NCBI RefSeq assembly: GCF_021654855.1
Contig: NZ_AP024202.1
Location: 496,001-560,000, forward strand
Length of the DNA stretch: 64,000 bases
Reading direction: 5' to 3'
DNA from: Thiomicrorhabdus immobilis
GTDB taxonomy: Bacteria; Pseudomonadota; Gammaproteobacteria; Thiomicrospirales; Thiomicrospiraceae
Part shown: piece by piece, positions 7,304-10,372 of the stretch
How positions within the stretch are numbered: position 1 is the first letter of the stretch
Layout of the letters: every line of letters begins with the position of its first letter
Translations under genes and position numbers: made by a program
The notes under the pieces: model-generated
Told to the model about the DNA's origin: nothing
The model's input: only the letters and a program-made list of their open reading frames with translations
Databases searched by the model: none

Positions 7304-9694
7304 TTAAAACTCACTCCATTCATCTTCATTACTGTTTTTAGCGGGTTCAGAATTTATTGTAGGAGCCGTTGCTTGAGGTTTGTGTCTCGTTTGTTCACTC
7401 TTCGATGGGGCTGGGGATGCTGAGTGAGCTATTTGTGGTTTGTTCTGCTCTGGTTTGATGTCAGCTGAAGCAATAGTGACGCCGTTGCTTTGGTTGTCAA
7501 ATTTGAAGTGGCTGATAAACTCCGCTTGTTTGGTGGACTCTTCACTCATATTCCCTGCGGTGGCTGAAAGTTCCTCTACAAGTGCGGCGTTTTGCTGAGT
7601 GACTTCATCGAGTTGTCCTATGGCAAGGTTGACTTGTTGAATGCCTTGGGATTGTTCATTGGTTGTTGTATACACTTGAGAGACAAGGTCTTCGACTTCT
7701 TGAATGCTGTGAACCATTTTTTCAAATACGCTGTTGGTCTCTTCAACTAAGCTAGTACCCGTGGTAATTTGTTGTATCGCTGAGCCAATAAGGGTTGAGA
7801 TGTCTTTAGCGGCTTCGGCCGATTTACTGGCAAGGTTTCGGACTTCTCCAGCAACCACGGCAAAGCCGCGACCATGTTCGCCTGCTCTTGCCGCTTCAAC
7901 GGCGGCATTAAGTGCTAATAGATTGGTTTGGAAGGCAATGCTATCAATCACCGAAGTGATTTCACCAATTTTTTTACTCAGTTCAGTAATGCCTGCCATC
8001 GCTTCAAGGGTTTTGTTCATTACATCAATACCGCTACTGGCTTGTGTAACTGTTTCATGGGCAAGTTTATTCGCCTGAATCGAGTTATCGGTTGAATTTT
8101 TAAGTGTTGCGGTCAGCTCTTCCATGCTTGCCGCCGTTTCTTCAAGCGAGGCGGCTTGCTCCTGGGTTCTTTGAGATAAATCCTCACTGGCTACCGCGAC
8201 TTCTCTCGCCATACCGCCAATTTCTTGTGCACCGGTATTTACTCGGCTTAAGGTGTGACTGAAACTTTTTATAGCATCGTTTGTGGCGGTCTGCATTTCT
8301 AATAGTTCCGCTTGATATTCACCTGATAAACGATGGGTCAGGTCTCCTGTCGCCATGTTGGATAAAATGACATTCAGATTTTCTGTGATTTGAGAAAAGT
8401 TTTCCAACAGTAGGTTGATGGATTGTGAAATCTGTAATTCAAATCCATGCAGTTTCGTCTCATCTATACGACGTGATAGGATGCCTTTAGCGGCATCGGC
8501 AATAATGCTTTCAATGTTCTCTTCGATAGCCAATTGATCGGTCATATTTTTCCATTCGGCTACTGTCCCAATACGATTATTGTTTTCATCAAAAATCGGA
8601 TCAACAATTAAATCAATGATGGCGTTTCCCACATGGATTCTCGATTGATAACTTTCTTTTAGGTTGTCTAGTAGGGAAGCCTGGTGTTCCGGGTGTTGGT
8701 GAAATACATCAATGCTTTGACGTATCAATTTGTCACTATCAAAGTTAGGAAGGTCTTTTTTGATTTCATTCTCAACACTTTTAAGCATCTGAATAACGGA
8801 ATCATTCATAAATATAATGCTACGGAATCGGTCGATAACCATGATATTGGACGATGCGGCTTTAAGTGCGCTTTCAACACGCATGGAGTTCGCTAACGCC
8901 GCCTTAACATCATCCAAGTCCGCACCGAGCTTGATTTGCATCGACTTCAAACGACCGAAAGTCTTGGATACCAGGCTGTTGCCCCTTGAGTCGATTTCTC
9001 CGTGAAAGTTCCCCTCGGAAATAGCCGTGATTTTTTCAGACAACAGATTGAGGCGTTTACCATTTAGCCAGCTGCTCAAGACAATTAGAAAGACCAGCGC
9101 GATATCAATAACTTCAAATACGACTGTGGGAATGACGCTTTCAATTTCAGGGAACAGTAGGGTGGTAAAAATCGATACGAGTAGAAGTGTGGATAATATA
9201 AAGGCAATCGCAGATTGATTGAGTTGCAAAAGAGGGTTGAAAGTTTCGGTCAGGTTTTTAACATTACCGTTGCGAAGGGCTATTTTGCCTTTAGCGATCA
9301 GTCGGTAGGCATTTTCAGCGGCGGAAATCTGTTCTCTGGTTGCCGGAGTTCTTACCGACATATAACCAGTCATTTCGCCATGTTCAAATATTGGCGTCGC
9401 ATTTGCAATTACCCAATAGTGGTCGCCGTTTTTTCTACGGTTTTTTACGGTTTGCGACCAGGGTTTACCTTCTTTTAAGGTTGACCAAAAATCCTCAAAT
9501 ACAGCAGCGGGAACATCAGGATGGCGCAAGATATTGTGAGGTTGACCGACCAGTTCACTCCAGGAAAAACCACTTGCTTCAATAAAGGCTTCATTCGCGG
9601 ATATGATATTGCCGCGCAAGTCGGTCCTTGAAACAATCGTAGTATCTTTAGGTAGATTGAATTCTTTTTGGGTAACAAGTCCATTGTCTCGCAT
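7304..9694 (-). CDS. PAS-domain methyl-accepting chemotaxis protein (Aer-like)
   Basis: This 796-residue receptor starts with a cytoplasmic PAS domain (about 15-125) of the Aer type, including [22 protein letters not shown]. Two adjacent membrane helices (about 163-210), a HAMP domain, a second PAS-like region (about 275-390), and the signalling domain with [20 protein letters not shown] follow. The Aer-like layout suggests redox or energy sensing through a bound flavin (family knowledge). The C-terminus DEWSEF fits the xWxxF pentapeptide that tethers CheR or CheB, so it is a high-abundance type receptor with its own adaptation docking site. A c-di-GMP-I riboswitch precedes it at 9790-9865. 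AAAGG lies upstream of the ATG. Confidence 0.95.
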
Positions 9695-9765
9695 GCTACG
9701 TTTACCTTTATTGGATTTGGTTGTTTTTTATCTATTCTGATTCTATTTTAGGAAGCCTGTTCTAT

Positions 9766-9865
9766 GCCAGGGGGCGGTGGTGTTGTATTTTTAAGCAACC
9801 TGGCGGTCTTAAGGTTGTTAAGATCCATGGCTTTCCGTCCTTGTTTCGCAACAAGTTTGGCTAAA
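9766..9865 (-). promoter_or_regulatory. c-di-GMP-I (GEMM-I) riboswitch upstream of chemoreceptor
   Basis: Read on the minus strand, the aptamer (9865-9790) shows the whole GEMM-I layout. P1 pairs TTTAGC (9865-9860) with GCTTAAA (9796-9790). A CCAAAC segment comes next. P2 is CTTGTT/AACAAG capped by a GCGA GNRA tetraloop, then the conserved GGACGGAAAGCC. P3 pairs TCTTAA with TTAAGA, with a bulged A, and the 3' signature is GCCAGGTTGC. The aptamer ends about 95 bases before the chemoreceptor start. A CCTGGC at 9771-9766 can pair with the aptamer's own GCCAGG, a possible alternative fold for the expression platform. No intrinsic terminator is evident, so control may be at translation. Confidence 0.86.
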
Positions 9866-10024
9866 TCTAATGTAGTGTTTTTATCAAGTAGGGTTCAATA
9901 TCATTTGAATAAAAATAAACCCCTTAATCTCAGTATGTTATTGATTTTAAAAAAAGGATATTCAAATAAAATGATATCTAAATAGAAGAAGTTTATAAGG
10001 TTTAATCAAGTTAGTATTGAGAAA

Positions 10025-10372
10025 CTAATCGCTATGATGGCGTTTTCCCATATCGATTAAGCGTTTTTTATAGGCGAAAAAATCTTCCAAGGCTTCTTGT
10101 TCAAAATGACTGAGTGATGCAAATTCTAGCTTTAGGTAGATTTTATCTTCGGTGTTATGCCGGTGAGTAACTGAGGTGTTAATCGATAAGGTGGTGAACT
10201 CGCCTAATGCGGGAATTTCAAACTCTAACTTGAGCTCGGTACCCTCTTTAGCCCCACGGGGAGTGATGACCCCCGCTTCGAATAAAGACAAGTCTACCAA
10301 TGTGGCTTCTGCCGATGCGTTTTTACCGATCAGTAAGGCCTTGCGATCTGTTTTGTAGATAGGGCTTTTCAT
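10025..10372 (-). CDS. PilZ-like domain protein
   Basis: This 115-residue single-domain protein looks like a PilZ domain, the common c-di-GMP receptor fold. It has a basic N-terminus (KTDRKALLIG), a VDLS segment, then beta strands with LKLEFEIP and IYLKLEFASL, and a C-terminal helix rich in basic residues. The two ligand motifs are degenerate. The usual RxxxR reads RKALL, and the D/NxSxxG motif is stretched to DLSLFEAG. It may bind c-di-GMP weakly or act as a type II, non-binding PilZ protein. It stands alone but next to the riboswitch-controlled chemoreceptor, consistent with a motility role (inference). Confidence 0.72.
   Translation of the reverse strand: MKSPIYKTDRKALLIGKNASAEATLVDLSLFEAGVITPRGAKEGTELKLEFEIPALGEFTTLSINTSVTHRHNTEDKIYLKLEFASLSHFEQEALEDFFAYKKRLIDMGKRHHSD

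Follow-up and report, generated by a model that had tools for sequence, protein, structure and literature searches.

Among the closest described systems is the Bc1 c-di-GMP-I riboswitch of the Bacillus cereus group, which is often located upstream of methyl-accepting chemotaxis protein (MCP) genes and has been studied at mcpE (PMC11218506). The locus described here resembles Bc1-mcpE in having a class I aptamer before an MCP gene. It differs in that Bc1 has a long expression platform with two Rho-independent terminators (PMC11218506), whereas we saw none in our leader, and in that our receptor is Aer-like. In Azospirillum brasilense, oxygen sensing is mediated by a PilZ-containing chemoreceptor (PMC6406031); there the PilZ domain lies within the protein, while here the c-di-GMP element lies in the mRNA leader. 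In a literature search on riboswitches, aerotaxis, and c-di-GMP, no title returned mentioned riboswitch control of an aerotaxis gene. Chemoreceptor genes with a c-di-GMP-I riboswitch in front have been described before, and the present locus is a solid fresh example of a known device. Our main reading, to which we give a probability of roughly 0.87, is that the leader of an Aer-like energy-taxis receptor gene here contains a c-di-GMP riboswitch of class I. The basis is sequence evidence: the aptamer is intact, belongs to a covarying family, has the c-di-GMP pocket, and lies on the strand of the receptor, directly 5' of its gene.

We scanned the whole window (the 64-kb stretch of DNA analyzed) with cmscan, which returned a single riboswitch match at 9870-9790 of the minus strand, 81 nt long and covering 80 model positions. 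The aptamer is flanked by a PilZ-like gene upstream and the receptor gene downstream, with 95 nt from its 3' end to the receptor ATG (9694-9692). The preliminary description had placed the element at 9766-9865; the aptamer begins 5 nt earlier, at 9870, and 9766 is the end of a downstream CCTGGC segment. The aptamer, its parts, and the two flanking genes are as follows.

9790 to 9870, minus strand: c-di-GMP-I (GEMM-I) aptamer (RF03167, 60.7 bits; RF01051, 60.3 bits; covariance model of the genus, built with the window row included, 83.6 bits).
9835 to 9860, minus strand: P2, with a GCGA tetraloop (9849-9846) and outer pairs C21-G46 and C22-G45 (Rfam alignment, genus pair counts, and the bases themselves).
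9797 to 9832, minus strand: P3, with a bulged A (9828), the receptor C59-G79 (9822, 9808), and G83 (9804) (Rfam alignment, pair counts, and bases).
9861, minus strand: G20, the ligand-selecting base (present in all 30 aligned genus aptamers, that of the window among them).
9834, minus strand: A47, which stacks between the ligand's two guanines (role from PMC3764141; position from the Rfam and genus alignments).
9795, minus strand: C92, a ligand contact (PMC4744006, PMC3764141; 30 of 30 aligned genus aptamers).
7304 to 9694, minus strand: Aer-like chemoreceptor, 796 aa (Pfam PF08447, PF13188, and PF00015; structure match 8dik).
10025 to 10372, minus strand: upstream PilZ-like protein, 115 aa (PF07238, 20.8 bits, below the cut-off of 22.5).

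The top Rfam label was RF03167 (c-di-GMP-I-GGC; E value, 7.7e-12), which the aptamer reached with a margin of 1.7 bits over the gathering cut-off of 59. The GEMM-I model that the preliminary description had suggested as a check, RF01051 (c-di-GMP-I), scored well above its own cut-off of 35 bits. The two labels tie, with RF03167 ahead by 0.4 bits. By these scores, the match is no chance event.

The published ligand contacts of c-di-GMP-I riboswitches are G20, A47, and C92, and the conserved bases are C22, A23, A25, G32, A35, G42, C44, G45, A47-A49, C59, G79, and G83 (PMC4744006, PMC3764141). All of those conserved bases were found in the window, with A23, A25, G32, A35, and G42 read by hand from the Rfam alignment. 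The published set also includes a G90, which lies beyond the mapped positions because the window P3 is not of the same length as that of Vc2. The aptamer has the mapped ligand and tertiary-contact bases and the P2/P3 architecture in common with RF01051. The GNRA loop on P2 (GCGA), its P3 receptor C59/G79, and the inter-helix pair C44-G83 are all kept. Of the GEMM-I elements that had been described on the minus strand, we recovered P2 with its loop, GGACGGAAAGCC, P3 and its bulged A, and GCCAGGTTGC. P1, described alongside them, is weak: it has three model pairs (one G.U), at most four contiguous pairs by hand, and is missing from the minimum free energy folds of the 5'-terminal 90 and 100 nt. 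Every P2 pair is intact, and the single nonstandard P3 pair of the Rfam model is an A.C.

Position 20 had been read as a G that fits c-di-GMP rather than cGAMP, and this holds both at 9861 and across the 30 genus aptamers. Since G20, A47, C92, C44-G83, and the tetraloop with its receptor are kept, the ligand is most likely c-di-GMP. A20 marks cGAMP (GEMM-Ib) riboswitches, and a signature base-contact residue in the GGDEF domain identifies cGAMP synthases. Riboswitches for cGAMP (c-AMP-GMP) do exist and share the fold (PMC7266159, PMC8835794), but it is scarcely credible that the window aptamer is one of them, with G20 rather than A in 30 of 30 genus aptamers and with Asp as the signature residue in 50 of the 51 GGDEF stretches of the genome (40 by strict motif and 10 by eye). 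Besides these 51 GGDEF matches, the genome has 29 EAL matches, 28 of them above the cut-off; this wealth of c-di-GMP enzyme domains favors our main reading. One GGDEF stretch, L286, has a Ser near the signature place (by eye), and its protein looks inactive because RLEEHIF replaces the GGDEF motif. As a separate observation, a related aptamer in another family (L024, G047:C83) has an A at the place of position 20 (AAACCAAACC), which we take to be a cGAMP-type mark.

The RF03167 label, on which the preliminary description was silent, raises the question of a c-di-GMP-I-GGC variant with an altered or unknown ligand. The lead over RF01051 and the passed cut-off favor such a variant, whose name is presumably linked to a G at position 47. 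The RF03167 consensus has G there; the window has A, as do all 30 genus aptamers. Moreover, four matches above the RF03167 cut-off (L001, L005, L006, and L007) all carry A47 by eye, so this model also catches A47 aptamers. We therefore class the window aptamer as c-di-GMP-I on its A47 and consider the variant quite unlikely.

RF01051 matched 31 sites in 16 of 32 Thiomicrorhabdus genomes, and 30 of these aptamers, window included, were aligned (one had no locus). G20, C21, C44, G46, A47-A49, C59, G79, G83, and C92 were invariant in all 30. Two-sided changes occurred in 13 of the 19 pairs, and 99.5% of the 560 cells were paired; these counts lean toward pairing, as the sequences were chosen by covariance search and the structure was taken from the same search. 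Values as high were reached in 0 of 500 shuffles, and with the pairing partners shifted by 1 to 3 columns, at most 3 two-sided pairs remained. When run across the whole family, the genus model matched in 27 of 62 genomes and in 2 of 7 genera.

The first P2 pair is G21-C46 in Vc2 and C21-G46 in the window. This flipped pair is fixed in the 30 genus aptamers and common elsewhere, with at least 124 pattern matches in at least 115 stretches, and we rejected it as the mark of a new variant because it is too widespread. Among the matches listed, flipped-pair aptamers were not found before Aer-like receptors elsewhere, as 0 of 115 first downstream ORFs had an MCP motif. L149 and L161, which had been flagged for a PAS-like motif downstream of such an aptamer, proved to be short frames without one.

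We took the first frames 3' of each aptamer as the downstream genes in the genus. The window species has two aptamers, one before the Aer-like receptor and a second copy before a DUF2202 protein, and other genus aptamers precede proteins resembling the latter. Further aptamers precede PEP-CTERM-tailed proteins (one of them tested with Pfam), the Pfam-tested 4HB/HAMP receptor of G005, a similar receptor of G020, and, in G024, an apparent subtilisin-like protease (read from sequence). G027 has two intact aptamers before two Aer-like receptors, with PAS domains confirmed by Pfam.

Some arrangements stand apart from the receptor locus. Tandem aptamer pairs (L008/L026, L009/L027, and L025) start approximately 165 to 195 nt apart and precede an apparently secreted protein of 106 to 114 aa with no Pfam match (G017 protein tested). 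Contig G007:C125 has three aptamers approximately 1 kb apart (L022, L032, and L054). Two of them each precede a secreted protein of their own that ends in a PEP-CTERM-like tail (one Pfam-tested), and the third has no frame with such a tail within the stretch examined. A different genus of this family has aptamers of the class approximately 320 to 600 nt before a release-factor-3-like GTPase gene, which we take to be prfC. This link was found in 5 of the 11 genomes from that genus (L224, L226, L227, L230, and L231 in G066, G067, G065, G062, and G036, respectively), with one locus per genome examined (10 loci). The protein downstream of L226, the sole one domain-tested, has GTP_EFTU and EF-G_D2 domains. 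A literature search for a c-di-GMP riboswitch at prfC gave, judged by title, nothing on this subject.

The receptor consists of a PAS domain, a membrane segment (read from sequence), a second PAS (PF13188), a weak HAMP-like stretch (HAMP_2, below its cut-off), and an MCP signaling domain. The first PAS (PF08447) scored 61 bits and MCPsignal (PF00015) 167 bits, and residues 1-118 matched the aerotaxis-receptor PAS structure 8dik with an E value of 9.1e-43. We assume that 8dik is the Aer of E. coli. With an Aer PAS and an MCP signaling domain in one protein, the Aer-like PAS receptor of the preliminary description was confirmed, and going by these domain matches, the protein is an Aer-like, putatively oxygen/energy-sensing chemoreceptor, for which FAD binding and a role in aerotaxis would be predicted from sequence similarity. 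It is like E. coli Aer in its N-terminal PAS and MCP signaling domain, while the 796-aa protein has an extra PAS_8 match that, to our knowledge, E. coli Aer lacks after its first PAS. The genome has 18 MCP-domain matches, this receptor among them.

The upstream PilZ-like gene had not been mentioned before. PilZ domains bind c-di-GMP through D/NxSxxG and RxxxR motifs. In the window protein, DLSLFEAG departs from the usual D/NxSxxG and there is no clear RxxxR, so it may not be a c-di-GMP binder.

Three features of the leader bear on how the aptamer might act.

9766 to 9771, minus strand: CCTGGC, the exact complement of GCCAGG (9804-9799) in P3 (complementarity and folding).
9751 to 9757, minus strand: GGCTTCC, the complement, with one bulge, of GGAAAGCC (9836-9829) in the aptamer core (folding).
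9692 to 9709, minus strand: Shine-Dalgarno-like AAAGG and receptor start codon (same predicted pairing in both folds).

At 90 nt, the best fold was the aptamer fold (-17.5 kcal/mol). For the full leader, a competing fold with CCTGGC/GCCAGG and GGCTTCC/GGAAAGCC was 6.9 kcal/mol better than the fold constrained to P2/P3. A gap of this size was matched by 9 of 500 leaders with shuffled downstream sequence and by 6 of 200 in a repeat. When 14 leaders were put through the competing-fold test, only the window and L033 fell under 5%, and with that many leaders tested, one low shuffle count is unsurprising. As for the other Aer-like leaders, the gap was 0.0 in L053 (200 of 200 shuffles as strong) and 6.5 in L059 (26 of 200), and neither keeps the CCTGGC and GGCTTCC segments. 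The simple CCTGGC-GCCAGG switch of the preliminary description, which did not include the GGCTTCC complement, therefore has an exact complement and plausible folding in its favor and this lack of conservation in two related intact leaders against it.

In our model, c-di-GMP would bind the aptamer and keep P2 and P3 together. With no ligand, the P3 3' arm GCCAGG and the core GGAAAGCC would pair with the downstream CCTGGC and GGCTTCC. We found no masking of the Shine-Dalgarno region, which pairs alike in both predicted folds. Nor did we find an intrinsic terminator in 9600-10100, a blank that says little because the scan gives 0.5 sites per shuffle. The same interval had 0 sigma-70-like promoters versus 1.6 in shuffles. 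Two 8-of-12 sigma-28-like matches with 15-nt spacing before the aptamer were rejected as meaningless, with 696 of 128,000 window positions reaching 8 or more. The first 40 nt after the aptamer contain 16 C and 6 G, a base composition that may hint at Rho control of the leader. Our guess is that the ligand-bound fold would leave this C-rich, G-poor, unstructured leader exposed to Rho and that the free fold would hide it. High c-di-GMP would then mean less receptor; the opposite sign is possible.

Control could alternatively run through a 26-codon upstream ORF (9828-9748, minus strand) with its AUG in P3, whose ribosomes would unfold the aptamer. By hand, this ORF (which contains PPPPG) covers P3 and both competing segments and ends just after GGCTTCC. 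However, the AUG belongs to P3, L053, L059, and L057 preserve neither its frame nor its length (also by hand), and such a length is not rare by chance. We regard control of this kind as very unlikely and the ORF as probably incidental.

For the history of the locus, orthologues were defined as the best receptor match in 21 genomes; window aside, they were 53-70% identical to residues 1-473. Adding the second G027 gene (L059) gave 22 receptor genes; the second G013 copy was left out. A PilZ-like gene lies upstream in 10 of the 21 loci, window included (two of the 21 had less than 700 nt of upstream sequence), and also before L059. By the genus model, an aptamer precedes 3 of the 21 orthologues, namely, those of the window, G027, and G007. 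Over all 22 genes, three aptamers are intact. A fourth, that of G007, is decayed (43.1 bits): 6 of the 19 model pairs no longer form, five of them in P3 and one in P2. It occupies the same PilZ-receptor spacer as the intact aptamers of the window and of L059. The closest orthologue, in G015 (70% identical), is without an aptamer, and a search with filters off found no relic before it (best, 4.9 bits). In a receptor tree without outgroups, the window grouped with G015 (91/93) and G007 with L059 (100/99); the interrupted G003 and G018 orthologues were cut at the first stop, and the L059 row ends where its locus ends. From these comparisons, the PilZ-receptor locus is old and the aptamer patchy, a distribution that had gone unremarked. 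The aptamer was either present ancestrally with losses or gained repeatedly.

Such patchiness, the decayed G007 copy, and the weak P1 could also mean that the window aptamer is a relic that was functional once but now drifts and leaves the receptor unaffected. We find this quite unlikely, as the mapped pocket and tertiary-contact bases and all P2 pairs are intact, with one odd P3 pair (the A.C). A broader form of the main reading, of a working c-di-GMP riboswitch, is possible but doubtful: RNA-level c-di-GMP control of an energy-taxis receptor would have come and gone at an old PilZ-receptor locus of Thiomicrorhabdus, acting through Rho or the upstream ORF and without an intrinsic terminator or ribosome-site masking.

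The series of intact, decayed, and absent aptamers at a single locus lets the gain and loss of a riboswitch be studied. If our main reading is true, then in a genus that has named strains, the abundance of an Aer-like sensor would depend on the messenger behind the choice to swim or to stick.
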